A DNA stretch of 64,000 nucleotides. Source: a virus. The notes under the pieces are model-generated. The model made no database searches, had not been told where the DNA came from, and was given only the letters and a program-made list of their open reading frames with translations. Of the stretch, positions 7,928 through 63,980 are shown piece after piece. Numbering within the stretch: the first letter of the stretch is position 1; every line of letters starts with the position of its first letter. The stretch covers positions 1-64,000 of the IMG/VR virus record IMGVR_UViG_3300027833_000001. One strand, given 5' to 3'. The position numbers and the translations under genes were made by a program.

Positions 7928-9541
7928 ATGGCAGTAGACGTACTACTTTTTACGGGTATCTCCGCATATTCGTATGAAGTAACAAATATGAGTACCTCAC
8001 CTTCTTATGAAATGGCGATGCGAACATCAGGCACGTATCGAGTTGCCACCTACCTCAGAGAAACATATGATCTAAACGTAGAAGTTGTTGACTATCTACA
8101 CTCATGGACATATGAAGAACTAGTCGAAATCGTTGATAGTAGAGTAGACCGCAATACCAAACTAGTTGGTGTTGGAGGCATCTTCTATTTAAACACTCCC
8201 AATATAGCAAGTATATTTCAATACGTCAAGGAAAACTATGACGTAGTAACAGTGGCTGGCAGCCAAGGATTGTGGTCTATTGCATCCATACCCAACATAG
8301 ACTATGCCATAGTAGGATACGGAGAACTGGGTATCAGCGCAGTACTTGCTGGTAATCCAATATACTCAGAGAAATCAGTTTATCCTGGTGGACCAACGGT
8401 AAAAGTTGTTGAGTGTATGGACACAAAAGAGTACAATGCATTCCCTTGGAAAAATATTGGAATTGGATATGAAAAGCGAGACTTTGTAAGACCAGAAGAG
8501 ACACTATCATTTGAGACTTCAAGAGGATGTCGTTTTCAATGTGCATATTGTAACTTTCCTATTCTTGGTGTGAAAGATGACCACACAAGATCAGCCGAAG
8601 ACTTTGAACGCGATCTCAAGCGCAACTATGACACATGGGGTACAACAGATTACATTGTTACAGATGATACTTTTAATGATTACACAGACAAGATAACAAA
8701 GTACGCTGATGTAGTACAAGATTTATCATTTGAGGTTGACTTTACAGGATATATCCGTGCTGATTTAATGACACAGAGAAAGGGTGATTTAGAACAACTT
8801 GCTAGGATGAGATTCAATAGTCACTTATATGGAATTGAGTCAACAAACAGAGAATCAGCTAAAGCAATGGGTAAAGGTGGCGATCCTAAAAAGATTCTTG
8901 ATGGCATATTAGAAGCAAAAGAATATATGTTAAAGCAGACTGGGTACTATAGAGGTGAGATGAGTTTCATATGGGGGCTGCCGTACGAGACAAGAGAAAC
9001 GCTTGACTGGACATTTGATTGGATAGATAAAAATTGGCAGGGAGAAGCAATGTCAATGTTTGATCTCAGTATACCAATGGCAGGTCCACACGCTATTATT
9101 CGTAGCAATATACTCTCCACAAACCTAGATAAATACAATTATAGAAAGGCTCAACCAATAGAAATATCTAACATTGATGTTCAACTACAACAAATTTTAG
9201 ATGACCCTAATGTTGATGATTTCAATAAGAATAGAATGCGTTTGATGAAACCGGATCCAAATGATCCATTGTATCAGATACACACGGTACTATGGAAAAA
9301 CGAACACTGGGATATGATTAGTGCGTGGTTAGGATGTCAAACAGAGTTATATGGCAACAAACGATACTGGGATAGAGGCATTCCAATCTTCAATCAAGCC
9401 AACTGGACATCGGTAGGATACAAAAAAACTGACTTATTGAAGTCATTTAGGGAACTTGGACTGACAATGCACCCACCTATAGAAAAAAGAAGAGCGGTTA
9501 TTGAAGAATACAAGCAGAATAAACTTTCCTGGGTATCTTAG
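7928..9541 (+). CDS. Radical SAM protein with B12-binding-like N-terminal domain
   Basis: 537 aa. Residues 1-150 resemble the Rossmann-like cobalamin-binding domain of class B radical SAM enzymes (VGVGGIFYLNTPN near 80; DYAIVGYGELG near 125), but without the DxHxxG cobalamin ligand. The radical SAM core carries CxxxCxxC at C201/C205/C208 (CRFQCAYC), binding the 4Fe-4S cluster that cleaves S-adenosylmethionine. Possible reactions are methylation or methylthiolation; substrate unknown. It lies between structural-region genes rather than metabolic genes. Confidence 0.82.
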   Translation: MAVDVLLFTGISAYSYEVTNMSTSPSYEMAMRTSGTYRVATYLRETYDLNVEVVDYLHSWTYEELVEIVDSRVDRNTKLVGVGGIFYLNTPNIASIFQYVKENYDVVTVAGSQGLWSIASIPNIDYAIVGYGELGISAVLAGNPIYSEKSVYPGGPTVKVVECMDTKEYNAFPWKNIGIGYEKRDFVRPEETLSFETSRGCRFQCAYCNFPILGVKDDHTRSAEDFERDLKRNYDTWGTTDYIVTDDTFNDYTDKITKYADVVQDLSFEVDFTGYIRADLMTQRKGDLEQLARMRFNSHLYGIESTNRESAKAMGKGGDPKKILDGILEAKEYMLKQTGYYRGEMSFIWGLPYETRETLDWTFDWIDKNWQGEAMSMFDLSIPMAGPHAIIRSNILSTNLDKYNYRKAQPIEISNIDVQLQQILDDPNVDDFNKNRMRLMKPDPNDPLYQIHTVLWKNEHWDMISAWLGCQTELYGNKRYWDRGIPIFNQANWTSVGYKKTDLLKSFRELGLTMHPPIEKRRAVIEEYKQNKLSWVS

Positions 9542-49832: not shown

Positions 49833-49877
49833 ACCGTAATAAATACAAGTAGAAAGAGTAGAACTATGGTGATATAA

Positions 49878-50609
49878 ATGAGAAAAGCAGTACTTAAACA
49901 AAACAATTCCTGGGCACCCATCACATTGTTGATTAGCCAACTGATCGCTCAGGTGTCATTGATACCTATGATCATGTACGCACAGTCTTGGCAATGGATA
50001 CCATTCATCGCTGTCTATTGCGCTATGATGTTAGGTGTTACAATGGGATATCATCGATACTGGTCACACCATGCATTCAAGTGCAATAAAGTTATTGAGT
50101 ATGTTATGATGTTCTTTGCTCACGTTATGATGATCGGTCCAGCAATTACTTGGGCAGCCAATCATAGAGAACATCATAGATATGCTGATACGGAAAAAGA
50201 TCCACATTCACCTCACTATAGAGGTTGGCTTCTTGCATACTTTGGACAAGTTCTTATTAATATAAACTTCAAGTATGCCCGAGACTTATTGAAGCAGAAG
50301 TTATGTCGAGATCAGGTAAAGTATTATTGGCACGTTATAGGAGCATATGCTCTCTTGTTAGTTTTGATTGATCCGTTTGCTTTAATATATGCTTGGTTAG
50401 CACCAGCAGGTGCCGCTAAGTTGATTGGCTCTTTCGTATTTACATTTTCACATAGAGGCAAAGAAGCGCATAGTGATACTTGGTTAGGAATTATAACACT
50501 TGGTGAAGGTTTTCATAAAGCACACCATGATCACGGTAACAGACAAATTCTTTGGCATAAACTTGACCTTGGAGGACAGTTAATCAGACTTATTGATAAA
50601 ACTGCTTAA
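49878..50609 (+). CDS. Membrane fatty-acid desaturase (acyl-CoA/acyl-ACP delta-9 type)
   Basis: 243 aa. The three histidine boxes are intact: HRYWSHH (59-65), HREHH (96-100) and HKAHHDH (213-219), which bind the diiron site. Hydrophobic segments at ~14-34, 40-56, 73-92 and 152-175 fit a polytopic membrane enzyme. It would introduce double bonds in acyl chains, possibly altering host membranes or an acyl group for the downstream pathway. First gene of the operon. Confidence 0.88.
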   Translation: MRKAVLKQNNSWAPITLLISQLIAQVSLIPMIMYAQSWQWIPFIAVYCAMMLGVTMGYHRYWSHHAFKCNKVIEYVMMFFAHVMMIGPAITWAANHREHHRYADTEKDPHSPHYRGWLLAYFGQVLININFKYARDLLKQKLCRDQVKYYWHVIGAYALLLVLIDPFALIYAWLAPAGAAKLIGSFVFTFSHRGKEAHSDTWLGIITLGEGFHKAHHDHGNRQILWHKLDLGGQLIRLIDKTA

Positions 50610-50612
50610 ATT

Positions 50613-51311
50613 ATGAATTTTAAATATGTACCCTTTGTGGCTGATAGATTTGATTATGACTATTGTAGAAGACACCCGTATCGCAATCAATTAGAAGCAC
50701 ACCCAATCGCCAACGCAGATGATATGGCTTTACTCCATGAAAATCTTACGGACTGGGAAAAAGCTATTATCATTGCAGGAAGTTATTACTTTATTTGGGA
50801 TAGCTATGACCAGAAAAGAATAACAGAGCAATCAGACAAACTAATCAGCATTGAAGACTGTCAATTCTCTTCAGATGTCCATGCAAACTCTACCAGTCTT
50901 ATTAAAGAATATGTAGAAACATATCAAGGTACTTTTAGTTTCTTGATGGGTAACAATGACTACAGACCTAAAGCAGATAGCTACTTTAAACACGCACATC
51001 AACCTACAGAGATTGATGGCAAAACATATGAAGACACTTTCACGATTATCTATCCTATACATCTAGAAAATGACGTTATAGAAGAGTTCAAAATTTTCTA
51101 TGTGGAAGAAGAAGGAATCTACAAGCTATTAAAAGCACCATTGACTTATCCAGACGGAGATGTTAAAAGTGTAAGATTTCCTAAAAAGGGTGAAGCACTC
51201 TTGATACACTTTAATTCATGTAAGGGTATTCATTGGATAGACGGACTTACTAATAATAATTTTATGGCTCATGCATTTGATTCTGTCAATATGAGGAAAG
51301 AACTATGCTAA
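50613..51311 (+). CDS. Hypothetical protein in radical SAM operon
   Basis: 232 aa. SYFKHAHQPTEIDG near 127-140, TIIYPIHLEND and GEALLIHFNSCKGIHWIDG near 193-211 suggest a double-stranded beta-helix of 2-oxoglutarate oxygenase or cupin type, but the HxD...H ligands are not clear. It starts 3 bases after the desaturase and overlaps the oxygenase gene, so it is part of the same operon. Confidence 0.6.
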   Translation: MNFKYVPFVADRFDYDYCRRHPYRNQLEAHPIANADDMALLHENLTDWEKAIIIAGSYYFIWDSYDQKRITEQSDKLISIEDCQFSSDVHANSTSLIKEYVETYQGTFSFLMGNNDYRPKADSYFKHAHQPTEIDGKTYEDTFTIIYPIHLENDVIEEFKIFYVEEEGIYKLLKAPLTYPDGDVKSVRFPKKGEALLIHFNSCKGIHWIDGLTNNNFMAHAFDSVNMRKELC

Positions 51312-52003
51312 AGAAACGAGATTTGCCTGTTGTTGCTCCTATTCCAGGAATACGATTTAACTTGGATAAGATTAAAGAAGAACTTGCTAAGATAGAACAT
51401 CTATGGGAAGACATCTACAAAGCTAATCCCGGCATAACAAAATTACATGATCCATCTTTTGTTGATAATGCATATGCAAACTTAAAAGAGATTCCCTTGA
51501 TGGTAATGTCACCAGAGAATATGGCAAAAGCTGATGACTTTGAACTTGAAGATTTGGGTGCTACTCTTAGAGATAGAATTCGTAATAAGAAAGCGAAGGG
51601 TGATAACTTACCACCAACTGCAAATGAGATGTTGTGGGATTATCAGACTGATGCTTGTAGGGGTACTTACTTTGAAGAAGCATTAGCAGGACACTTTTCT
51701 GCACCAGTTTGTCGTGCTAGACTACACTTTCTTGCACCAGGTATGAGTTTACAACCACACATTGATTATGATCCATCTTATGGTGTTAGAATCGTCTGTC
51801 CTATATCTGGAACTGATGAATGTATCAATCAATTTTGGGTAAACGGTGAGTATCAAGAACATAATCTGCCAGCAGACGGAAGAGTTTGGTTTTTGAATAC
51901 TGGATTTAAACATGGCGTAGTAAATAATGGTACTGAGCCACGCATTGCATTATTAGCTACATTGAAGAGTCAGGAAGATATAGAATGTTTGAAATTAGTA
52001 TAG
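51305..52003 (+). CDS. Aspartyl/asparaginyl beta-hydroxylase-like 2-oxoglutarate oxygenase
   Basis: 232 aa. ARLHFLAPGMSLQPHIDYD carries H152-x-D154. FLNTGFKHGVVNNG carries distal H203, and EPRIAL carries R213, which binds 2-oxoglutarate. These are the Fe(II) and co-substrate residues of the Asp_Arg_Hydrox family. It probably hydroxylates a peptide or small molecule. Its neighbours suggest the substrate is shared with the radical SAM enzymes. Overlaps both neighbours. Confidence 0.8.
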   Translation: MLKKRDLPVVAPIPGIRFNLDKIKEELAKIEHLWEDIYKANPGITKLHDPSFVDNAYANLKEIPLMVMSPENMAKADDFELEDLGATLRDRIRNKKAKGDNLPPTANEMLWDYQTDACRGTYFEEALAGHFSAPVCRARLHFLAPGMSLQPHIDYDPSYGVRIVCPISGTDECINQFWVNGEYQEHNLPADGRVWFLNTGFKHGVVNNGTEPRIALLATLKSQEDIECLKLV

Positions 52004-52626
52004 TAGAGTATGATGGTTCTAAAATAGAAAGAGAACAGATAGAGAACTTTAGAGAGTTGTCTTTTAAAGAAGGTAATGATAGTTTAGCATATGACAAATA
52101 CGACCCAGACAAGACTGGTCAGACGTTTTTAAATTATGTTGATGGCAAGCTGGCTTCATTGAGTGTTATAGAGCCAAGTCATTACACGGGTGATCCAACT
52201 GTAGCCGCAAGAGGTTGCAGACTTCACATTGCTACTGAATTTAGACCTGCTTGGTTAGGATTGCTTCATGCACCTAAACAAATTATGTGGGCAAAAGAAA
52301 ATGGGTTTAAAGTATTCTTCTTTACGCATGATATTCGTAACAGAGCAATTAATGCAATGTATCAAAAACGAAGATTTGGTGGAGCAGTTACAGAGTTACA
52401 GAAACAGATGGAATGGATGTGGACTTCAGATTGGTATCAGGACTTGTCTCTTGATAGAAGACTATTATTTCAAGTCGATGAAAGGTCTGACTTATTACAG
52501 TATGTTTATTATTGGACATTAGAAGAAGGGTATGTCTGGAAACCACCTAGCAATGTTGTTTGGTATGACCACGATGGAAGAATAAAATCGAACGTAACAG
52601 AAAAGGAAATAATTAATGCACATTAG
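51985..52626 (+). CDS. GNAT-like acyltransferase
   Basis: 213 aa. DGKLASLSVIEPSHY, then CRLHIATEFRPAWLG, then QIMWAKENGFKVFFFTHDIRNRAINAMYQKRRF has the strand-helix order and crowded motif of N-acetyltransferase folds (the last helix after the splayed strands). It might attach an acyl group, perhaps derived from the desaturase. Assignment is from pattern only. Overlaps the oxygenase gene by 19 bases. Confidence 0.55.
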   Translation: MFEISIVEYDGSKIEREQIENFRELSFKEGNDSLAYDKYDPDKTGQTFLNYVDGKLASLSVIEPSHYTGDPTVAARGCRLHIATEFRPAWLGLLHAPKQIMWAKENGFKVFFFTHDIRNRAINAMYQKRRFGGAVTELQKQMEWMWTSDWYQDLSLDRRLLFQVDERSDLLQYVYYWTLEEGYVWKPPSNVVWYDHDGRIKSNVTEKEIINAH

Positions 52627-53227
52627 CGGTGAAGTAGTTGCCACTTGGTTTAACTTTCTTAGAGATAATCAAGATGATCCAGAAGTTTGTCGTAGATACT
52701 ACGAATGCTTTTGGGAAAGTCAATTGCAAAGTAAACAAGTAGTGTTGGACATGATTGATAGAATGGATGTGTATCAATGTTACATCTTTGGTGGATGGTA
52801 TGGGTTGCTTGCACAGATTTTACATGATTCAATCCGAAATCATCATCCTGTCGTTAGTGTTGATATAGACCCTAAGTGTGCTATTGTAATTAATAATTAT
52901 TTTAATCCTGAAGATGGTATTGTAGCACATACAGGTGATATGGCAACATATAAGTATATTATTAAGCCCGAACTTGTTATCAATTGTAGTACAGAACACG
53001 TTGATCAAAAAACATACGATGCTTGGTTTGATAGAATACCATTGAACACTGAGTACATTATTCAAGGTAATAATCTGGATATACCAGAGCATATAAGACT
53101 TGCAGATGATATTAATCATTTTAAAGATATTAATAGATGCACCAAAGTCATTGATAAGAGAGTTACTGACTGTCCTGGACCCAATGGAATCTTTCAGAGA
53201 TATACGATTAAGGGAATCAAAGTATAA
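52616..53227 (+). CDS. Class I methyltransferase-like protein
   Basis: 203 aa. YIFGGWYGLLAQIL (56-69) corresponds to a motif I loop with Gly-Gly, VVSVDIDPKCAIV (78-90) has the acidic residue after strand 2, and LVINCSTEHVDQ (118-129) fits motif IV. A phage methyltransferase of this kind recurs in T4-like genomes. The acceptor is unknown; it may act in the same pathway. 11-base overlap with the GNAT gene. Confidence 0.62.
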   Translation: MHISGEVVATWFNFLRDNQDDPEVCRRYYECFWESQLQSKQVVLDMIDRMDVYQCYIFGGWYGLLAQILHDSIRNHHPVVSVDIDPKCAIVINNYFNPEDGIVAHTGDMATYKYIIKPELVINCSTEHVDQKTYDAWFDRIPLNTEYIIQGNNLDIPEHIRLADDINHFKDINRCTKVIDKRVTDCPGPNGIFQRYTIKGIKV

Positions 53228-53230
53228 TAC

Positions 53231-54022
53231 ATGGACAAAAAAGTGATAGCAGTCCATCTAGGACTCAATAAAGAATATACTCTTAATATAGAACTCTTTG
53301 ATCACAGAGTGGCAAATCGAATATGGGAAATGATACGGGTAGCAGATGATGTAGACTTTGTTTCTCGTATGGAGTTTTATAAGTTTGGTAAAACTGAGTC
53401 ACAAGTAGAATCCGACTTATATGAAACAATAGAAGAACTAAAGCGATTAAAACCTGATACCTTTACACTAGATTATGATTTAAATAGATTACATGAAAAT
53501 TTTCCTGAGTTAGTACGCACAGAAACATCGTCATCGATAAAACACTGTTTGACAATGTTTAATTATCATCTGCATCATCTTGAAAGAATGCGTCAAGGTG
53601 GTGGAAGACAATTTTTATTCTGTAGCAACATTGAGTCAGAACCTTTACAAGATGAAGACTATGATCTTTTTACTATAGGCAATAAAGAAAACATTGCTTA
53701 TATGAACTATCCTCATGTGGGTAAGAGTGTTACAGAAATAGTACAACAAGAAGACACAGAAATTCCATCACAACATATTCTCCCTACAAGTGTAATCAAG
53801 CCAGATTTATTGTTTCACTTAGACGAAGATAGATGGATAGGGAACGAACAAACAATAGTAGAATACATAAACTCATGGCTTGTTAAGATACAACATAAGT
53901 TACCGTATCCTATTAACGATAAAAGATTGGCACTTGGACACATACCCATAGGTAAAATAATCGATCCAAATATAACTAGTATAACAGAGAATCAATACAT
54001 ACACAGCATAGAGGCTATATGA
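53231..54022 (+). CDS. Hypothetical protein in radical SAM operon
   Basis: 263 aa, acidic, helical in the middle (SHHL-type motif HCLTMFNYHLHHLERMRQGGG). No cysteine cluster, no catalytic motif recognised. It starts 3 bases after the methyltransferase-like gene and overlaps the truncated radical SAM gene by 4 bases. Similar unnamed proteins lie near glycan-related genes in marine phages, which is only suggestive. Confidence 0.55.
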   Translation: MDKKVIAVHLGLNKEYTLNIELFDHRVANRIWEMIRVADDVDFVSRMEFYKFGKTESQVESDLYETIEELKRLKPDTFTLDYDLNRLHENFPELVRTETSSSIKHCLTMFNYHLHHLERMRQGGGRQFLFCSNIESEPLQDEDYDLFTIGNKENIAYMNYPHVGKSVTEIVQQEDTEIPSQHILPTSVIKPDLLFHLDEDRWIGNEQTIVEYINSWLVKIQHKLPYPINDKRLALGHIPIGKIIDPNITSITENQYIHSIEAI

Positions 54023-54570
54023 AAACTTTATCAATAGAAAGTTGGGGAACTCAAGCAGAATATATTCGTAGTGGTCTTAATCTGACGCTATTCGATAAAA
54101 ACCTAGCAGAGATAGTTGACAATGGTATTGATGCTTGTATTGTATGTACCTTCAACTTACTAAGCATTCCAAACTTTAAAGAGTTTCTTGATGTTATGTT
54201 GGAATTCAAGACTGTTGCATGGCTTCGTGGTGAAGGTAAGGTATCTTTGGACACTTTCCCAGTTCATAGTCATTATCATTTATCATCATTGATATTAGAT
54301 GATAAACAGCTTGACAACCTCCGCAATTTAGTGTATTATATGTCTAAATCTGTAGATGATAGGGATGTTACTAAATTTAACTCAATAGAGTTCGCTAAGT
54401 TTGAGCGAGTACTCACATGGGTTGAGGAGAATAGGTTTACTGGTGATGAATTAGTCAAGAATAGATTAGATTTTAAAAAGTTTATTGATGAACACGATAA
54501 GGAAAGGGGTACGAACTTTACCAAAACTTTTCCAGAATTGGAGTATTTCTACGAGATGTGTAATGGCTGA
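54019..54570 (+). CDS. Radical SAM paralog lacking its catalytic N-terminal half
   Basis: 183 aa. SWGTQAEYIRSGLNL at 8-22 aligns with the WGPQAEYARYGMNL stretch of the radical SAM gene at 61142, and ACIVCTFNLLSIPNFKEFLD aligns with the NILSISSMVEFVQD strand-helix of 54563. The tail DEHDKERGTNFTKTFPELE matches the FPEL tail of the paralogs. The region that would hold CxxxCxxC and GGEP is missing, and the upstream gene does not supply it. It is a stand-alone C-terminal half or remnant. Confidence 0.65.
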   Translation: MKTLSIESWGTQAEYIRSGLNLTLFDKNLAEIVDNGIDACIVCTFNLLSIPNFKEFLDVMLEFKTVAWLRGEGKVSLDTFPVHSHYHLSSLILDDKQLDNLRNLVYYMSKSVDDRDVTKFNSIEFAKFERVLTWVEENRFTGDELVKNRLDFKKFIDEHDKERGTNFTKTFPELEYFYEMCNG

Positions 54571-55948
54571 AGAAGGCACTAATGAATATTGGATCAAAGA
54601 ATTAAAAGATAAAAGAATCAAGATAAATGAAATAAGTCCTTCTTTTTGTTCTGCTAAATGGTTACAGACTACTCTGATGTTACAGAATGGTTATAATCAT
54701 TCATGTCACCATCCATCCCCACACAAGATTCCTGTTGAAGAAGTCTTGGCAAATCCAGCGGCATTGCATAATAGTAATTATAAGAAAGTGCAAAGAGACA
54801 AGATGTTGTCTGGTGTTCGACCTAAAGAATGTGACTATTGTTGGAAGATAGAAGACTTAGACAAAGAGTATTTCTCTGACAGACATTACAAGACTGCTGA
54901 TTGGTGGGCTTGGGATAAAGTTGACATTATTGCAAAGAGCGATCCTTACGAAGATGTTTATCCTACTTACTTAGAAGTATCATTCAGTAATGCTTGCAAC
55001 TTTGCCTGTGCTTATTGCTCACCCGAAATATCTTCTGGGTGGATGAAAGACATTCAGAAAGATGGCGTGTATCCAGTTAAGTTTGGTTCACATGATTTGA
55101 ACTATCTTAAAGAAGTCGGCAAGTATCCATTCAAGAATAGTGATCCAAATCCTTATGTTGATGCATTTTGGAAATGGTTCCCAGAAGCATTTAAACATCT
55201 AAAAGTATTCCGCATTACTGGTGGTGAACCTACAATGTCAAAAGACTTTTGGAAAGCAGTCGATTATATTGTAGAACATCATCACGAAAATCCAGAACTT
55301 AAAATAGGAATCAATAGTAACTTAGGTACAGACCCACGTTTGATCGAAAGACTTATTGAGTCTGTTATAAGACTAGAATCACATGGCATTGATGTTGAGA
55401 TATTCACTAGCGCAGAAAGTACTGGTAATAAAGCCGAGTATGCTAGAGATGGTATTGTCTATGATGAATGGATAGCGAACATAGAACGTATGTTGACAGA
55501 AACAAATTGTCGTGTTGTTATTATGACAACGGTAAATATATTGTCGATATCTTCAATGGTTGAGTTTGTTCAAGATATAATGGACTTACGTATTAAGTTT
55601 AATCAGAACTTGGCGCATAATAGAATACCATTAAGTGTAAACTACTTACGTTATCCACCGCATTTACAGTGTACATTGTTGACACCTATTTACCGAGAGA
55701 CAATGGCTAATACATTAGAGGTATTTTGTGAGAGTTGGTTGAAGTATGATTCACCTGACAAATTTGCTAGATTGTACTTAGAAGAATTTGACCAAGTTAA
55801 AAGACTTTGTGACTATCTGAGATCGGAGCCTACCGCAGATAAATACAGAGAAGACTTTGCAAACTTTATTAAAGAATACGATAGGCGAAGAGGAAAGAAC
55901 TTTAAAAATACTTTCCCCGAATTGATTAAAGATATGGAGAAATGGTGA
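54563..55948 (+). CDS. Radical SAM protein with N-terminal cysteine module (A1)
   Basis: 461 aa from ATG 54563. Core cluster C145/C149/C152 (CNFACAYC) and SAM-binding GGEP (220-223). The N-terminal module has C29, SCHHP C48, and CDYC C90/C93, likely ligands of an auxiliary Fe-S cluster; in SPASM/twitch enzymes such a module lies after the core, here it lies before. C-terminal EYDRRRGKNFKNTFPEL is shared with paralogs. Product and substrate unknown. Overlaps the previous gene by 8 bases. Confidence 0.82.
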   Translation: MAEEGTNEYWIKELKDKRIKINEISPSFCSAKWLQTTLMLQNGYNHSCHHPSPHKIPVEEVLANPAALHNSNYKKVQRDKMLSGVRPKECDYCWKIEDLDKEYFSDRHYKTADWWAWDKVDIIAKSDPYEDVYPTYLEVSFSNACNFACAYCSPEISSGWMKDIQKDGVYPVKFGSHDLNYLKEVGKYPFKNSDPNPYVDAFWKWFPEAFKHLKVFRITGGEPTMSKDFWKAVDYIVEHHHENPELKIGINSNLGTDPRLIERLIESVIRLESHGIDVEIFTSAESTGNKAEYARDGIVYDEWIANIERMLTETNCRVVIMTTVNILSISSMVEFVQDIMDLRIKFNQNLAHNRIPLSVNYLRYPPHLQCTLLTPIYRETMANTLEVFCESWLKYDSPDKFARLYLEEFDQVKRLCDYLRSEPTADKYREDFANFIKEYDRRRGKNFKNTFPELIKDMEKW

Positions 55949-57456
55949 AAAAAGAACATGATTTAATTAAGTATCGGGAAGATATTCTTGATACCAAATC
56001 TAAAAGTTTTTGTGGTGCAAAGTGGTACAATGCTACTACTTGGTTGGGCAGTGGCACTACTGCTTCATGTCATCACCCGCCCGCGCATAAAATCCCACTA
56101 GACGAAATCAAAGTCGACCCATCTGCAATTCATAATACTAAGCATAAGAAAACTATGCGGAAGATGATGCAGAAAGGCGAACGTCCAAGAGAGTGTGAAT
56201 ACTGCTGGAAAGTAGAAGACATGGATACGGGTGCTGTTAGTGACCGTACATACAAGTCGATCATCTATTCAGAAGAAGAACTTCAAGCCGCATTTGAAAT
56301 GGACCCTGATGAGAGTGTTGATTTAAAAACATTTGAAATATCATTTGACCGTACTTGTCAGTTGGCTTGTTCTTATTGCAACTCAAGTTTCAGTACAACA
56401 TGGGCTAAAGATATTAATAAGAAAGGTCCATATCAGAATCTAGTATCTGATGGTGCTGGAGCATTCCAACATAACGGAGATTGGGCAGATCCATATGGCA
56501 AGAAAGAAACTAACCCGTATGTAACAGCATTCTGGGATTGGTGGAATGACGGACTATCTAAGAGTCTAGACGAATTGCGAGTTACTGGTGGTGAGCCGTT
56601 GATGTCAGATCAGGTATGGAAACTGTTTGACTGGTTTGGTGAGAATAAAACAGATATGAGATTTGCAATCAATTCAAACTTGATGGCAAAAGATTCTATC
56701 ATTGATGCGATGATTGCGAAGACACAGAAAGTAGATCAGTTCCATCTTTATACTAGTTGTGAAGCAACGGGATTACAAGCAGATTATATCCGCGACGGAT
56801 TACATTATGAAACTTGGAAAAATAATGTATACAAGATACTGACTAATGGTAGACTTAGTGGTTGTAATATTATGATGACTATTAATAGTTTATGTTTGTT
56901 TAGTATCACGGACTTTCTTGATGATGTATATGATATGAAAATACACACAGGAATGAAAGCACCTGTTGTTAGTTTAAACTTGTTACGTTTTCCTAGCTTT
57001 CAATCTCCTCTTGCTTTACCAGATCATCTTAAAGATCACTGTCGAAAGCAACTACAAGATTGGTGGGAAGAAAAGAAAGATTTAAAATTGTGGCATGAAT
57101 TTGAAAGGGCTAGTATAGAACGTCTTATTGACTATCTTGTTACTGTTGATGCACCACATAGACGTACAAGTGATAAGATGACTTTATGGAGAGACTTCAA
57201 AACTTTCTATGCTCAATACGATGAAAGAAGAGGGTTGTCATTATCTGTATTTCCTAAAATTCTTACTGACTGGGTAGAAACTATTCCTACTACAGAAACT
57301 ATTCCATTAAAAGAAATGATTGATGGTGATAGCACTAGACAGTATGACAATGACCCCGATTTACAAGAGACTGTATCGTTAGCGAATGAAGAGGGTTGGG
57401 TACTTGACCCAGATAGTGAGAATATTGATGAACCTTTAGCATCGTATGACGAATGA
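55942..57456 (+). CDS. Radical SAM protein with N-terminal cysteine module (A2)
   Basis: 504 aa, the longest of the group. N-terminal C24, SCHHP C43 and CEYC C85/C88; core C139/C143/C146 (CQLACSYC); GGEP in RVTGGEP near 214-217. The C-terminal ~70 residues are extra acidic sequence absent in the others. Closest to A1 in layout (HKIP and SCHHP shared), pointing to duplication. 7-base overlap with A1. Confidence 0.82.
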   Translation: MVKKEHDLIKYREDILDTKSKSFCGAKWYNATTWLGSGTTASCHHPPAHKIPLDEIKVDPSAIHNTKHKKTMRKMMQKGERPRECEYCWKVEDMDTGAVSDRTYKSIIYSEEELQAAFEMDPDESVDLKTFEISFDRTCQLACSYCNSSFSTTWAKDINKKGPYQNLVSDGAGAFQHNGDWADPYGKKETNPYVTAFWDWWNDGLSKSLDELRVTGGEPLMSDQVWKLFDWFGENKTDMRFAINSNLMAKDSIIDAMIAKTQKVDQFHLYTSCEATGLQADYIRDGLHYETWKNNVYKILTNGRLSGCNIMMTINSLCLFSITDFLDDVYDMKIHTGMKAPVVSLNLLRFPSFQSPLALPDHLKDHCRKQLQDWWEEKKDLKLWHEFERASIERLIDYLVTVDAPHRRTSDKMTLWRDFKTFYAQYDERRGLSLSVFPKILTDWVETIPTTETIPLKEMIDGDSTRQYDNDPDLQETVSLANEEGWVLDPDSENIDEPLASYDE

Positions 57457-58766
57457 CCAGTTCTTATTTTTGTACAGCACCATGGACACACACCTATGCC
57501 TCTCCTACTGGAGAGCGTAGGCTTTGTTGTGCAAGTAGAGAAGACGCATCGTTTCAAAAGCAATACATAGACTCTGGTAACAAAGCTGGAGAATTTAATC
57601 CTGTATCTTTGAAAGAACATTGGAACAGTGAGTACATGAAAGATATTCGCAAACGTATGCTTGCGGGTGAGAAAATAAAACAGTGTGAAGTATGTAATGA
57701 TAATATATTAAACTTACACACCTATAGAAAATACTTTACGGAAACATTGTTCCCACATAAAGTGGAAGATATAATAGCTAGAACAGAGCCAGATGGTCAT
57801 TACAACGATCTTCCTATTTCATATGACTATCGTATATCAAATCTTTGCAACTTCAAATGTAGAATGTGTGGTGATCAGTTGTCGAGCAGTTGGGAAGCAG
57901 AGAATAAGATAAATGGTAGAATGCAAACTCAACCATGGACACAAAAAGACACTAGAAAGAAAATAGATACATTTCAGAAAGAAGTGTTAGAAGAAGAACT
58001 TCAAGCCGCAGTAGATGAGCGTAGAATAGAAGAAATATATTGGGTAGGTGGTGAGCCTTTAATGTGGGAACGCCATTGGACTATCTTAGAACAATTAGTG
58101 TATGATGGACAAGCAAAGGATGTTACACTAAGATATAATACAAATTTAAGTAGAGTATCATACAAGGGTATTGAGTTGTTCGACTTACTTCCACATTTCA
58201 AGCACGTTAATCTATGTGCATCGATTGATGGAGCTGGTGAAGTCGGTGAGTATATTAGAACTGGTCTAAAGTGGGATGAGTGGCTAGATAATTTTAAAAA
58301 AGGTATTCCTTTAATAGAAAAATATGGCAATGATGCTATGGTGTTTGATGTTACATTGACAACTCCAGGATTGTTTGATTTAAAACGCCTGTTCGATGTT
58401 GTTACAGAATTGGATGTAAAATCGTACTTCAAGTTCACTTTTGCATTTGATCCATCTGTTGTTATGAGTCCTTTATGTTTGCCCAGAGAGATATTAGAAG
58501 AAACCGTTAACGATTTGATTGATTACATTACTCCTAGAATGACTGATAAGACCCATGTATATAAAACATCTCTTGTTAATCTTTTGACTAGACAGACATT
58601 TCAAGAACAGTGGCCAAGAAAGTATGAAGAAGGAATCAGAAGTGGTAAAGGACATATGAAATATCTTGATCGTATTAGAAACGATAATATTGTTTTTAGA
58701 GACACTCTATCTGATAGTGCAAAAATCTGGTGGGATGCAATACCAGAAAATGAGGATTTGCCATGA
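57453..58766 (+). CDS. Radical SAM protein with N-terminal SPASM-like motif (B1)
   Basis: 437 aa. N-terminal FCTAPWTHTYASPTGERRLCC (C7, C25, C26) looks like the SPASM motif C...W...P.G....CC, with CEVC C78/C81. Core C132/C136/C139 (CNFKCRMC). VGGEP near 197-201. Distinct from A1/A2 in the first block. ATGA overlaps on both sides. Confidence 0.82.
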   Translation: MTSSYFCTAPWTHTYASPTGERRLCCASREDASFQKQYIDSGNKAGEFNPVSLKEHWNSEYMKDIRKRMLAGEKIKQCEVCNDNILNLHTYRKYFTETLFPHKVEDIIARTEPDGHYNDLPISYDYRISNLCNFKCRMCGDQLSSSWEAENKINGRMQTQPWTQKDTRKKIDTFQKEVLEEELQAAVDERRIEEIYWVGGEPLMWERHWTILEQLVYDGQAKDVTLRYNTNLSRVSYKGIELFDLLPHFKHVNLCASIDGAGEVGEYIRTGLKWDEWLDNFKKGIPLIEKYGNDAMVFDVTLTTPGLFDLKRLFDVVTELDVKSYFKFTFAFDPSVVMSPLCLPREILEETVNDLIDYITPRMTDKTHVYKTSLVNLLTRQTFQEQWPRKYEEGIRSGKGHMKYLDRIRNDNIVFRDTLSDSAKIWWDAIPENEDLP

Positions 58767-59956
58767 GTAAAACTTTTTGCCCTTTACCATGGACACATTT
58801 GGCTACACACCCCCAAGGTGAATTGACTCTTTGTTGTGAAGCGGATCATACAATGGGAATCTCTGAAGCATTTGATACTGATGAGTTTGGTCAACGTAAG
58901 CCGAGAACTCTTCATACAACTGAATATGATTTCGATGCAATACAGAACAGTGGTTCATTTAGTCGAGTCAGAAGAGAGATGCTTGACGGTAAGAAACCTC
59001 CTCAATGTACAAGATGTTTCGACTTAGAGAAAGTTGGAATAAAATCTAAACGTCAATATGAAAGCGACCGATTAAACTTTGATGAAACCAAAGCAATAGA
59101 AATAACAAATGCCGACGGAACAATCAATGAAGTTTCTTACGAGTTTGTTGAGTTACGTTTGGGTAATCATTGTAATCTAGCTTGTCGTTCTTGCAACCCA
59201 TTATCAACTAGCCGATGGACAAAAGATTGGAATGAAGTAAATCCTGATAATAAACTTTCAGTTACACAGAAGCTATTCAACTGGCCACTTGATACTGATT
59301 TCTGGGAGAAACTGTTAGAGCATTCTAATACACTTAGGTATGTTTATATTAACGGTGGAGAGCCATTACTAATTGATAAGCACTTGCAATTCTTAATTGA
59401 TCTTGTTAAGTGTGGTAGATCAAAAGATATTACTTTAGTTTATTCTACTAATTGCACTGTTGTTAACCACATATACGAAGACGTATGGCGACACTTCAAG
59501 CACGTACAGTTAATGGTATCTATTGATTGTCTAGCTGAAAGAAATTCGTTTATTCGCTCACCATCAAAGTGGGATGTTATACTACAGACATTAGAATGGA
59601 TAAAAGCAATATGTAAAGTAGATAATATATCATACAATATTATGCAAACGGTTTCTGTTTATAACATCTATTATATGAAAGAGTTCCATGAATTCTTTGA
59701 GTTTGCACCTTACGTATCGATGAACTTTGTGACTGATCCTTCTTATCTGGATCCTGCACTATTACCACAAGAGATAAAAGATGCTGTTATTGCTAAGTTC
59801 CCAAACCAGACAGTTATAGATTATTTGTCTAAAGGTGAATGCGCTGACAACATGAAAGAATTCCACAAGAAGAATGCTAAGATGGATGAATTGAGAAAAC
59901 AAGATTTCAAAGCAACATTCCCAGAACTATACGATATGGTGATTCCCTATGTCTGA
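58763..59956 (+). CDS. Radical SAM protein with N-terminal SPASM-like motif (B2)
   Basis: 397 aa. FCPLPWTHLATHPQGELTLCC (C6, C24, C25), then CTRC C82/C85; core C137/C141/C144 (CNLACRSC); NGGEP near 192-196. The C-terminus ends in DFKATFPELYDM, the FPEL tail seen in the group. 4-base overlap with B1 and 8-base overlap with B3. Confidence 0.82.
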   Translation: MSKTFCPLPWTHLATHPQGELTLCCEADHTMGISEAFDTDEFGQRKPRTLHTTEYDFDAIQNSGSFSRVRREMLDGKKPPQCTRCFDLEKVGIKSKRQYESDRLNFDETKAIEITNADGTINEVSYEFVELRLGNHCNLACRSCNPLSTSRWTKDWNEVNPDNKLSVTQKLFNWPLDTDFWEKLLEHSNTLRYVYINGGEPLLIDKHLQFLIDLVKCGRSKDITLVYSTNCTVVNHIYEDVWRHFKHVQLMVSIDCLAERNSFIRSPSKWDVILQTLEWIKAICKVDNISYNIMQTVSVYNIYYMKEFHEFFEFAPYVSMNFVTDPSYLDPALLPQEIKDAVIAKFPNQTVIDYLSKGECADNMKEFHKKNAKMDELRKQDFKATFPELYDMVIPYV

Positions 59957-61145
59957 TAAATTTTTCTGTGTAGCACCATTTGTTCATCTTTATGGACACA
60001 CAACAGGAGCAATTAAAACTTGTTGTGTTGGTGAAAAAACTTACGGTGATACAAAAGTAAATTCACTTGAAGAAATATGGCACAATGATGAATTTAAAAA
60101 TCTTAGAAAAGAATTTATTGCTGGTGATATCACAGATAATATAGCTAAGAATTGTGCCACTTGTATTAACTTTGAAAAGTCTGGAGTGCATAGTTTACGT
60201 ACAGCTATGAATGACTCTTATATGCAGTTCGCTGACATAGAAGAAGATCCTGATTTAAACTTAATGTATATGGATTTTAGATTTAATAATTTTTGTAACT
60301 TTAAATGTCGAGGTTGTTACAACGAGTATAGTAGTTCTATTAATGATGAAGATCATGGAGAAAGACAAGATATTATTTTTGCGGGTAAAACTGATAGAGA
60401 CATATTCGATCAAATTTATCCGTTGTTAGAAGATGTACAGAAAATTTATTTTGCTGGTGGTGAGCCTCTCATACAATGGCAACATTGGGAAATACTTGAA
60501 AGACTAGTAGAGATTGGAAGAACTGATGTTACCCTAGTGTACAATACAAATTTCAGCACAATGAAATATAAGGGTGGTAAAAATGTTATTGACTACTGGA
60601 AGAAATTTACTGACATTCAACTCTTATTGAGTTTTGATGGTATAGACAAAGGAGCAGAATACTGGCGAAATGGTTCTGACTGGCCACGACTTGTTAAGAA
60701 TGTTCATCGAGTAGTAAATGAAGCACCTCATGTTAATGTAGGTTGTACTACTACAGTTGGTTGGGCTAATCTGTACACTGCTATGGATTTTATTGATTAT
60801 TGTTCAGATAACTCAAAGACATTTATTAATCCTGAAGGTATAAATATAAACGTATTGCAACACCCAGTACATTTTTGTGTGCAGACTCTTCCTGATTGGA
60901 AGAAAGAAGAACTTGAAATACGCATTAGAAAAACACTGCATAAATATGATAGTATGGGATATAAAGATTCCTTACTATCTCGTAATCTACACGCATTGAT
61001 CACTTTCATGTGGGCAGACCGAAACGATAAAGTAGTACTTAAAGGTGCATGGAAAAGGATTGTTACTAAAAGAGACAAACTTAGAAATGAAAACTTCTTT
61101 GAGACATTTCCAGAACATATAAACATGAAAGAGTTAGTTGAATGA
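59949..61145 (+). CDS. Radical SAM protein with N-terminal SPASM-like motif (B3)
   Basis: 398 aa. FCVAPFVHLYGHTTGAIKTCC (C7, C25, C26) and CATC C69/C72; core C116/C120/C123 (CNFKCRGC); AGGEP near 174-178; tail ENFFETFPEHI. Same architecture and length as B2. Its ATG overlaps the B2 stop, indicating translational coupling. Confidence 0.82.
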   Translation: MSDKFFCVAPFVHLYGHTTGAIKTCCVGEKTYGDTKVNSLEEIWHNDEFKNLRKEFIAGDITDNIAKNCATCINFEKSGVHSLRTAMNDSYMQFADIEEDPDLNLMYMDFRFNNFCNFKCRGCYNEYSSSINDEDHGERQDIIFAGKTDRDIFDQIYPLLEDVQKIYFAGGEPLIQWQHWEILERLVEIGRTDVTLVYNTNFSTMKYKGGKNVIDYWKKFTDIQLLLSFDGIDKGAEYWRNGSDWPRLVKNVHRVVNEAPHVNVGCTTTVGWANLYTAMDFIDYCSDNSKTFINPEGININVLQHPVHFCVQTLPDWKKEELEIRIRKTLHKYDSMGYKDSLLSRNLHALITFMWADRNDKVVLKGAWKRIVTKRDKLRNENFFETFPEHINMKELVE

Positions 61146-62410
61146 GTGATGATATTTTTCCAATAAAAACTGCTACAGCCTGTCAATTCAAATGGTCATG
61201 GAGTACAATATTCTTATCTAAGGGTACAACTACAAGTTGTCACCGTTGCAACCATTGGGAATTTGATTTAAGCACACTCAAAGACTTTCATAATCTTCCT
61301 GGAAAGATTGGTGATAGAGAGAAGATGCTTGATGGTTTATGGCCAGGGAATGGATGTGAGTATTGTAAGAAGATTGAAGATGTTGGTGGTTCTAGTGAAC
61401 GTACAGCTTGGATAAACAAAAAAGATTTGATACCACCTGAGATTCTTGCTGGTGATATGAAAGCAACTAAAGTTACTCCACGTTTATTAGAAGTTTACTT
61501 TACCAACGTATGTAATCAAGCCTGTGTCTATTGTACTCCCCAATTCAGTTCCCAAATCGAAGCAGAACTTAGAAAGCACGGAGAAATACCAGCTAATCCT
61601 AGCTACATGAATCATCCTAGTATTGGCGATAACTATCCATTGTATCTACAGAAATTTTGGGAGTGGATGGAAGAACACGGATCAAAACTGTATGAGTTTC
61701 AGACTCTTGGTGGCGAACCTATGTATCAAAAAGAGTTTGAGCAGTGTATAAACTTCTTTGATAAACATCCAAATCCAAATCTCATTTGGAGAATCTTCAG
61801 CAATCTAAAGCATGATGAAGAGAAATTTAAAAAGAAGATTCAAAAAGTTAATGATCTTATTGCAAACAAAAAGATACGAGAGTTTCATATTGTTGCAAGC
61901 CAAGATTGTTGGGGTCCTCAAGCAGAGTACGCCAGATATGGAATGAATCTAAAGAACTGGGAAGCTAATCTCAGATATTGTTTATCACAGGGTGTTCCCG
62001 TTAATATCCATATGACAATCAGCGCACTGACTATTCCTACTCTAGGAGATTTCATAGACAAGATTTACAGTCTACGTAAAGAATACAAAGCAGGATTATG
62101 GATTAGTTCTAACACTATTGTTAAACCTGAATGTTTAGATCCATATATTTTTGGTGATAAAATTGCATTTTACTTAGAAGATGTTCTTACTAAGCTAACT
62201 GATCCAAATGACAAAGATCAGAAAGAATGTTTAGAAGGCATTCTTGTAGGAATGAAGTCTAGTAAAGTAAATATAAAAGAAGTAAATGATTTTAAAAATT
62301 ATTTGGATGAGATTGATAGGAGACGAAATACGAATTGGCGAATTCTTTATCCTGTTATCAGTGATATAACGGAGACAATTACGGAGAATATAATTGGCAC
62401 GTCAAGATGA
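61142..62410 (+). CDS. Radical SAM protein with N-terminal cysteine module (A3)
   Basis: 422 aa. N-terminal C14, SCHRC C33/C36 and CEYC C72/C75; core C124/C128/C131 (CNQACVYC); LGGEP near 195-199; DCWGPQAEYARYGMNL later, which the truncated gene at 54019 shares. Tail DEIDRRRNTNWRILYP is related to A1/A2. 4-base overlap with B3 and 17-base overlap with the next gene. Confidence 0.82.
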   Translation: MSDDIFPIKTATACQFKWSWSTIFLSKGTTTSCHRCNHWEFDLSTLKDFHNLPGKIGDREKMLDGLWPGNGCEYCKKIEDVGGSSERTAWINKKDLIPPEILAGDMKATKVTPRLLEVYFTNVCNQACVYCTPQFSSQIEAELRKHGEIPANPSYMNHPSIGDNYPLYLQKFWEWMEEHGSKLYEFQTLGGEPMYQKEFEQCINFFDKHPNPNLIWRIFSNLKHDEEKFKKKIQKVNDLIANKKIREFHIVASQDCWGPQAEYARYGMNLKNWEANLRYCLSQGVPVNIHMTISALTIPTLGDFIDKIYSLRKEYKAGLWISSNTIVKPECLDPYIFGDKIAFYLEDVLTKLTDPNDKDQKECLEGILVGMKSSKVNIKEVNDFKNYLDEIDRRRNTNWRILYPVISDITETITENIIGTSR

Positions 62411-63980
62411 GCCTTTAACTGCCAATCAGGGCGATAGGATAATATTACTTTTAGAACGTATTGCAGAAGCACTTGAACATCCAAAACTTAGCCACAATAC
62501 GACCACGATATCTAATACTATTCCTAGACCGAATCTTGGTAGATATGAACAGGCAGAGTATCCAGAAATTACTTTCAATGTATTCTTTGATAGATTCAAT
62601 GAGTCTGTTACTAACCCCAATGGTAATGGACAAGCACAATACCCTCCAAATGGAAGTTTAAAAGATCATATTTGGGATACTATTTTCCAAAGAATGAAAA
62701 CACATACGTTTGCAATAAGAGCATACGATGTAAAAGACTATGAAAGCGCATCAAAGTCATTTGATGAGAATGATGTCAATATTTTCCCAGTAGATTTGTG
62801 GGTAGATATGGAATTTGGCAAATCAATATCATCAATATCAGATAACGCAAAGAAGCTAATTGCAGACAAAAAACTATCACTGTTCTTATGTCTAATGGGT
62901 GAAGCGTTTGGATGTGATTATGAAGACTGGATAGCTAAACTCTCACAAGCAATTATAGGACATGGTCTTGCACAAGGTAAGATTGCAATATCATGTGCTG
63001 ACTTACGATTCCCAGAAAACTACGAAGAGTGGTCTAAAGACAATACTAAAATAACTTCCATGTTTAAATTTGAGAATATATTTCCATATGAATATTTTCA
63101 GTTGTTATATGCAGAACAATTTCAAGCAAGAACTGGTAGATGGTTACCTGAAGGCAAGCCAGCTAAATTCGGTAATATAGATGCACTAAGACCTATAAGC
63201 GAGGCTGAAGTCATGTTGAGTGTTCCTGATGGAACTACTAAGACTAAAGACTTCTTATGTATGAATGCCAGATCGAGACCACATAGAATTGCTATGGTAT
63301 CAGAACTGCATAGATTAGGATTAGATAATAACTTTATTAGTTTATTGTTTAGAGGTGATGATGTTGATAGTATTGTTAACCAAGATGGAATAATTAATTT
63401 TATCCGCAATGAATATATGGACACTGAAGCGAAACTAAATCACTTCAACACAATGTTTGTTAAGAATAGAAGTAAGAGAAAAATAATACTAGATGCAGAT
63501 GAAGCAGTCCATGCAGATGATAGAATACTTAATACCAAATATTTTGATGAGTCTTATTTTAGTCTTGTTACAGAAACAAATTTTGGAGTAACACTTGGTG
63601 AAGGTCAATTTCATCAAGAGTCATACAACACAACGATGTTTATTACAGAGAAGACATTTAAACCTATAGCGTATTTTCATCCTATTATTGTTTTAGGATC
63701 TCCTTATACATTAGCATTTTTAAAAGACGAGGGTTACGATACTTTCGAAGAGATGTTTGATGAGTCATATGATTTAATACTTGATCCACAAGAACGCTTT
63801 AACGCTGTTGTTACCCAAGTGAACAACTGGTGTAGAAAACCAGAAAAAGAAAAACGAGAGATATACGATTCAGTTAAGAAGAAGTTACATCACAATCATT
63901 GCCACTTTATCGGTAGATTTGATACACTGAGAAGAAGGGAGAAAAACTACTACAGGTATTTAGGGGCAAAATTAAGATGA
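62394..63980 (+). CDS. Glycosyltransferase-like protein
   Basis: 528 aa from TTG 62394 (overlaps A3; no strong alternative). The C-terminal half (FLCMNARSRPHRIAMVSEL, then FITEKTFKPIAYFHPIIVLGSPYTLAFL, then DTFEEMFDESYD) resembles a family of phage and marine bacterial transferases with a GT10/GT-B-like nucleotide-sugar motif (TEKTFKP...HP). N-terminal ~120 residues are variable. It may attach a sugar in the pathway of the upstream enzymes. Overlaps the next ATG by 4 bases. Confidence 0.6.
   Translation: MARQDEPLTANQGDRIILLLERIAEALEHPKLSHNTTTISNTIPRPNLGRYEQAEYPEITFNVFFDRFNESVTNPNGNGQAQYPPNGSLKDHIWDTIFQRMKTHTFAIRAYDVKDYESASKSFDENDVNIFPVDLWVDMEFGKSISSISDNAKKLIADKKLSLFLCLMGEAFGCDYEDWIAKLSQAIIGHGLAQGKIAISCADLRFPENYEEWSKDNTKITSMFKFENIFPYEYFQLLYAEQFQARTGRWLPEGKPAKFGNIDALRPISEAEVMLSVPDGTTKTKDFLCMNARSRPHRIAMVSELHRLGLDNNFISLLFRGDDVDSIVNQDGIINFIRNEYMDTEAKLNHFNTMFVKNRSKRKIILDADEAVHADDRILNTKYFDESYFSLVTETNFGVTLGEGQFHQESYNTTMFITEKTFKPIAYFHPIIVLGSPYTLAFLKDEGYDTFEEMFDESYDLILDPQERFNAVVTQVNNWCRKPEKEKREIYDSVKKKLHHNHCHFIGRFDTLRRREKNYYRYLGAKLR

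Follow-up and report, generated by a model that had tools for sequence, protein, structure and literature searches.

The window, that is, the whole stretch of DNA analyzed here, spans the initial 64 kb of a virus record 165,127 bases long, which we regard as T4-like because it encodes PhoH together with open reading frames (ORFs) judged by eye to specify tail, baseplate, and replication proteins. The ORF list of the window contains six plus-strand genes arranged head-to-tail at positions 54563 to 62410, with overlaps of 7, 4, 4, 8, and 4 bases from gene 1 to gene 6. Each product carries the motifs CxxxCxxC and GGEP and a cysteine module N-terminal of the radical SAM core. An earlier note on this DNA had described this arrangement, and its coordinates and motifs were confirmed. 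Three genes are A-type, recognized by SCHHP or SCHRC plus CxYC: A1 (gene 1; 54563 to 55948; 461 amino acids, aa), A2 (gene 2; 55942 to 57456; 504 aa, with a C-terminal extension), and A4 (gene 6; 61142 to 62410; 422 aa, with the SCHRC form). The three B-type genes, defined by FCxxPW/PF...CC plus CxxC, are B1 (gene 3; 57453 to 58766; 437 aa), B2 (gene 4; 58763 to 59956; 397 aa), and B3 (gene 5; 59949 to 61145; 398 aa), the last of which has PF where the other two have PW.

Family membership and domain order

All six proteins matched the family model NF033640 (N_Twi_rSAM; curated cutoff, 170 bits) over nearly its whole length, with scores between 217 and 346 bits (A1, 308; A2, 292; B1, 346; B2, 343; B3, 314; A4, 217). 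With E-values from 3.8e-64 to 2.4e-103, these matches are far beyond chance and place the genes in a single family rather than in unrelated families that happen to be adjacent. Among 326 distinct full-length relatives, the core cysteines and four twitch cysteines were intact in every one, as was CxxxCxxC, while GGEP was present in 322; none had a broken core. In B-type proteins, C7, C25, C26, C78, and C81 were invariant along with core cysteines C132/C136/C139 (61 aligned rows), and in A-type proteins the invariant residues were C24, C43, C85, and C88 along with C139/C143/C146 (55 aligned rows).

The earlier note had likened the N-terminal cysteines to a SPASM/twitch module, a comparison that proved apt. 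The Pfam SPASM model matched genes 3 to 5 at residues 6 to 85, N-terminal of the core, and residues 7 to 86 of the B-type profile aligned to the C-terminal twitch domain of BtrN (E = 4e-5), with E-values of 4e-5 to 7e-5 across the N-terminal modules in profile alignments. BtrN is a 2-deoxy-scyllo-inosamine dehydrogenase that oxidizes an aminocyclitol. Because the cysteines are invariant and the module aligns with the BtrN twitch, its sequence identifies the module as a twitch domain relocated ahead of the core. The array enzymes thus depart from the classical SPASM/twitch layout, and from BtrN itself, in which the module is C-terminal to the core. Each enzyme likely holds one auxiliary [4Fe-4S] cluster in this domain. 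AlphaFold2 models of B1 (pLDDT 93.1) and A2 (pLDDT 88.5) gave Foldseek matches that covered the radical SAM part only (BlsE, anSME, SuiB, CteB, DesII, and MoaA), the predicted core of A2 resembling BlsE, anSME, and SuiB. No whole-chain match to BtrN-like sugar or aminocyclitol enzymes was found with Foldseek, the best TM-scores being about 0.3 to 0.5 over the core only.

A truncated seventh copy at the 5' edge

The six copies counted earlier are all real, but a seventh, truncated copy had been overlooked at 54019 to 54570 on the plus strand, where it overlaps gene 1. It is the C-terminal half of a gene that we call A0 (76.5 bits over positions 236 to 398 of the NF033640 model) and lacks both the twitch and CxxxCxxC. 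The remnant consists of the C-terminal 183 codons, starting in an ATGA overlap with the upstream gene f1, and is 64% identical at the aa level to residues 260 to 442 of the A0 protein at the related locus L007. A0 is full length there and at L010, L019, and L037.

The gene f1 (53231 to 54022, plus strand; 263 aa; no Pfam match) forms the 5' edge of the array and appears to be a recently exchanged cassette. Positions 49876 to 53225 of the window are 91% identical to L007, in which the full-length A0 comes next. By comparison, f1 shares 94.7% DNA identity with L087, while nearby L087 sequence matches at only 72 to 79%. The edges of f1 fall where the 91% match to L007 stops and where A0 is truncated, and they are exact gene ends. 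The simplest reading of these alignments is that a cassette exchange replaced the front half of A0. Relatives of f1 with 335 to 390 aa occur inside other arrays. We rejected f1 as an obligate partner of the array, since only 1 of 33 f1 loci (L087) had an array within about 10 kb.

An ancient core with accessory genes

A scan with gene 3 as the query yielded 80 viral loci that were kept. At least three such genes were present in 80 of the 82 loci examined, and all 20 related whole virus records tested had 6 to 20 of them. The gene order A1-A2-B1(-B2) recurred among viral contigs, so the synteny that the earlier note proposed to look for exists. Across the array loci, 358 of 363 neighboring gene pairs were on one strand and 255 overlapped. 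The array, strongly conserved and made up of genes of a known family, is thus not unique.

We constructed a FastTree phylogeny of 146 proteins from 26 loci. Its basal split separates A from B as the two deepest groups, which bears out the division into three A-type and three B-type genes. The A1, A2, B1, and B2 groups contain one gene per locus almost throughout. Support was 100 for the B1 clade (26 rows) and 99 for B2 (24 rows); A1, which groups with the A-type genes that come first at other loci, was resolved less cleanly than A2 and B1 because five distant A1 genes adjoin it. B3 clusters with genes from L007, L009, and L022, and A4 forms one clade with genes from L007, L009, L044, L053, and L060. 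Pairwise distances were correlated between groups (r = 0.72 to 0.89), a result equaled in 0 of 2,000 Mantel permutations. On this phylogenetic evidence, A1, A2, B1, and B2 each form an orthologous group of their own and their histories mirror one another, which places the duplications before the split of these viruses, and inheritance of the core as one unit is the simplest reading. The same evidence marks these four genes as an ancient, nonredundant core and B3 and A4 as accessory; many uncultivated marine viruses have this core in common. The earlier idea of duplication and divergence thus stands insofar as the genes are paralogs of one family; the duplications are old, with orthologous groups common across viruses, and the tree ruled out recent local duplication.

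Comparison of the six genes with their nearest relatives at L007 gave dN/dS values of 0.06 to 0.12 (A1, 0.066; A2, 0.060; B1, 0.059; B2, 0.073; B3, 0.123; A4, 0.067), which are rough because dS is near saturation in several genes; A1 is 91% identical to its L007 counterpart at the aa level. Despite the cost and oxygen sensitivity of radical SAM enzymes, these open-water viruses carry 6 to 20 such genes per record and have long retained a core set.

Outside viruses, isolate bacterial genomes contained solitary B-type genes in varied surroundings, and the only sources of A-type genes were viral contigs and metagenome-assembled genomes, some of the latter being possible viral contigs themselves. 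The solitary bacterial copies adjoin genes for phosphate butyryltransferase, a PLP enzyme, and proline racemase, as might be expected if the viral enzymes served the infected cell by making or modifying a cofactor or small metabolite, in an auxiliary pathway unrelated to surfaces. The virus also carries its own IscU gene (E = 3.6e-54). However, the bacterial neighbors vary between lineages, and IscU occurred in only 5 of the 20 array records, several of which are fragments; we therefore consider a metabolic role unlikely. An A-type Fe-S carrier was found in 7 of these 20 records. For want of a consistent context, the bacterial neighbors were also set aside as a guide to the substrate. In the record analyzed here, IscU and, directly after it, a weak A-type carrier match lie at record positions 130395 to 131071 (L004).

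Relation to described phage systems

The earlier note knew of no described phage system of this kind. That claim is not supported because T4-like clusters with multiple radical SAM genes have been published (PMC2853527, PMC5332604, PMC7029224). The marine virus TARA_ERS488813_N000010 (183 kb) is likewise T4-like and has 12 radical SAM genes and an A-type carrier, with IscU in other viruses (PMC5332604). The Fe-S genes found here fit that report, which describes Fe-S assembly genes in marine viruses rich in radical SAM genes; the likeness concerns radical SAM count and Fe-S supply. In pelagimyophages, radical SAM cassettes are gained and lost within a host recognition cluster, or island, alongside glycosyltransferases and tail fibers, although radical SAM is known there from annotation alone (PMC7029224). 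The T4-like Campylobacter phages CP220 and CPt10 have five radical SAM genes in an operon-like cluster with nucleotide-sugar transferase-like genes, which forms an interchangeable module (PMC2853527). That module differs from ours in not being N_Twi and in having its extra cysteines C-terminal of the core. We rejected the cluster as a homolog, as the six-gene profile had no match at E < 10 in the 50- to 99-kb stretch of CP220.

Interchangeability of the Campylobacter type (PMC2853527), together with the cassette exchange at the 5' edge, the 6 to 20 copies per record, and the variable accessory genes, is what one would expect of a fast-evolving, exchangeable module for anti-host functions or superinfection exclusion, with copy number set by arms-race turnover. 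The slow evolution and coinheritance of A1-A2-B1-B2 argue against such a module, as does the poor match to the viperin family, and we regard it as very unlikely. A viperin-like function was itself rejected, NF038283 scoring at most 35.4 bits against a cutoff of 180.

Divergent relatives were detected in isolated phages. In Vibrio phage K566 (L199), five genes matched the six-gene profile and three of these lie close to one another, yet those in K566 and K567 share only 22 to 24% identity with the array, and the three genes read had the B-type motif. Some N_Twi genes of Vibrio phages are annotated as hypothetical. K566 and K567 offer a possible bench system. A tblastn search of 50,697 phage records returned no relative of A2. 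The tandem A1-A2-B1-B2 order is absent from the definition of NF033640, and the present analysis worked out the definition of the core, the mirroring of its trees, and the history of the truncated copy.

Neighboring genes and candidate substrates

Upstream of f1 lies f11 (52616 to 53227, plus strand; 203 aa), which was found at 25 of 80 array loci; it looks methyltransferase-like by eye, an assignment that is tentative because there is no Pfam match. Downstream of the array is f2 (62394 to 63980, plus strand; 528 aa), with a conserved TEKTFKP motif, which occurs in all contexts and at 33 of the 80 array loci. It had no Pfam match and no convincing PDB match, and a glycosyltransferase assignment was rejected because the motif was all that spoke for it. 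A viral scan with this gene as the query found no relative.

The surroundings of the arrays fall into three contexts. The first, with families f3 and f4, comprises 39 loci. The second (15 loci) has GT7-LamG fusions (GT7 match, E = 7e-21) and a LamG protein between A1 and A2; at L045 (L045:3594-5009) and its relatives, the fusion occurs twice in tandem upstream of A1, and a free-standing LamG-like protein separates A1 from A2. The third (15 loci) is that of the window, with a desaturase, an Asp/Asn hydroxylase, and f11. A carbamoyltransferase was present at 19 loci and a UDP-sugar dehydrogenase-like gene at 12, both also downstream of the window's array, and an epimerase gene lies farther downstream in the record. 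By sequence match, the glycan assignments of GT7, carbamoyltransferase, UDP-sugar dehydrogenase, and epimerase are solid, and those of f4 (glycogenin-like transferase, E = 4e-4), f3 (putative glycosyltransferase, weak match), and f25 (putative glycan family) are tentative. The only families in all three contexts were f1, f2, the carbamoyltransferase, the dehydrogenase, an SGNH-like family, and a few epimerase genes. At 27 of 80 loci, no glycosyltransferase family (f3, f4, f22, or f25) was within five genes.

We tentatively favor the view, possible rather than probable, that the array tailors a virus-made glycan or a glycosylated part of the virion. It builds on what was observed of family, domain order, conservation, core order, selection, and neighbors. 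The six N-terminal-twitch enzymes would be translated as one coupled operon, each with a SAM-cleaving [4Fe-4S] cluster and, presumably, one auxiliary [4Fe-4S] cluster in the twitch. They might then catalyze C-H oxidations, epimerizations, or deoxygenations, several in succession or in parallel, on sugars built or attached by virus-encoded glycosyltransferases and carbamoyltransferases, and the outcome would be a changed surface glycan or glycosylated virion component. Alignment of the twitch with that of the aminocyclitol enzyme BtrN, the sugar-nucleoside enzyme BlsE among the best Foldseek core matches, and the glycan enzyme families that recur beside arrays all point this way. The IscU gene of the virus and the weak A-type carrier match beside it are also in keeping with it. 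Against it, the peptide enzymes anSME, SuiB, and CteB match the core about equally well, and the solitary bacterial B-type genes have no common glycan context. The same holds for the absence of a whole-chain match to any sugar-acting enzyme, the merely putative glycosyltransferase identity of f2 and f3, and the 27 loci without a glycosyltransferase family nearby. Adjacency to glycan genes also counts for little, since T4-like marine phages commonly have such genes in their variable islands (PMC7029224).

The main alternative is direct modification of amino acids (cross-links, epimerization, or oxidation) at several sites of virion or host proteins, like that performed by SPASM/twitch peptide maturases. 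Here the resemblance of the core fold to anSME, SuiB, CteB, and EpeE would be expected. Genes close by also speak for it: LamG-type proteins separate A1 from A2 in 14 loci, the array has genes for tail sheath and tail tube nearby in 7 to 8, and f8, structural-looking by eye, is near it in 21. However, a small substrate gene in conserved synteny, which the earlier note would have taken to favor a biosynthetic system, was searched for and not found. No family of less than 130 aa spans the three contexts, the overlapping junctions of the window's array leave no room for a small precursor gene, and Pfam detected no RiPP recognition (RRE, PqqD-like) domain in the six genes or the window neighbors scanned. 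We consider protein modification somewhat unlikely.

A strongly conserved protein of 75 to 77 aa, phrog_8676, is encoded between A1 and A2 at several loci (L007:7686, L010:8271, L019:7399, and others). It was rejected as a conserved substrate because it is confined to five loci, all near relatives, and tblastn found it absent from the examined stretches of the window's record.

A broader possibility, which we hold to be doubtful, is a widespread, virus-owned pathway in which the ancient core A1-A2-B1-B2 and interchangeable accessory enzymes would make an infection- or virion-specific glycan or protein decoration through chemistry undescribed in cellular systems. Knowing the product would make sense of a large part of the unassigned gene content of these abundant, uncultivated T4-like viruses from the sea, and new enzyme chemistry might come to light. 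Within the orthologous core, A2 and B1 are the first candidates.

Other features of the record

Radical SAM genes also occur elsewhere in the record. Two are of another kind, one of 537 aa at positions 7928 to 9541 of the window and one of 499 aa at record positions 76498 to 77997, the latter with a weak B12-binding match; a 268-aa radical SAM protein at record positions 149365 to 150171 matched NF033640 only weakly. ARAGORN identified a permuted tmRNA at about 72,645 to 72,976 of the record (L001:10646-10977) with the tag ANDEVFALAA, which matched the Rfam families RF04321 (tmRNA_permuted) and RF01850 (beta_tmRNA).
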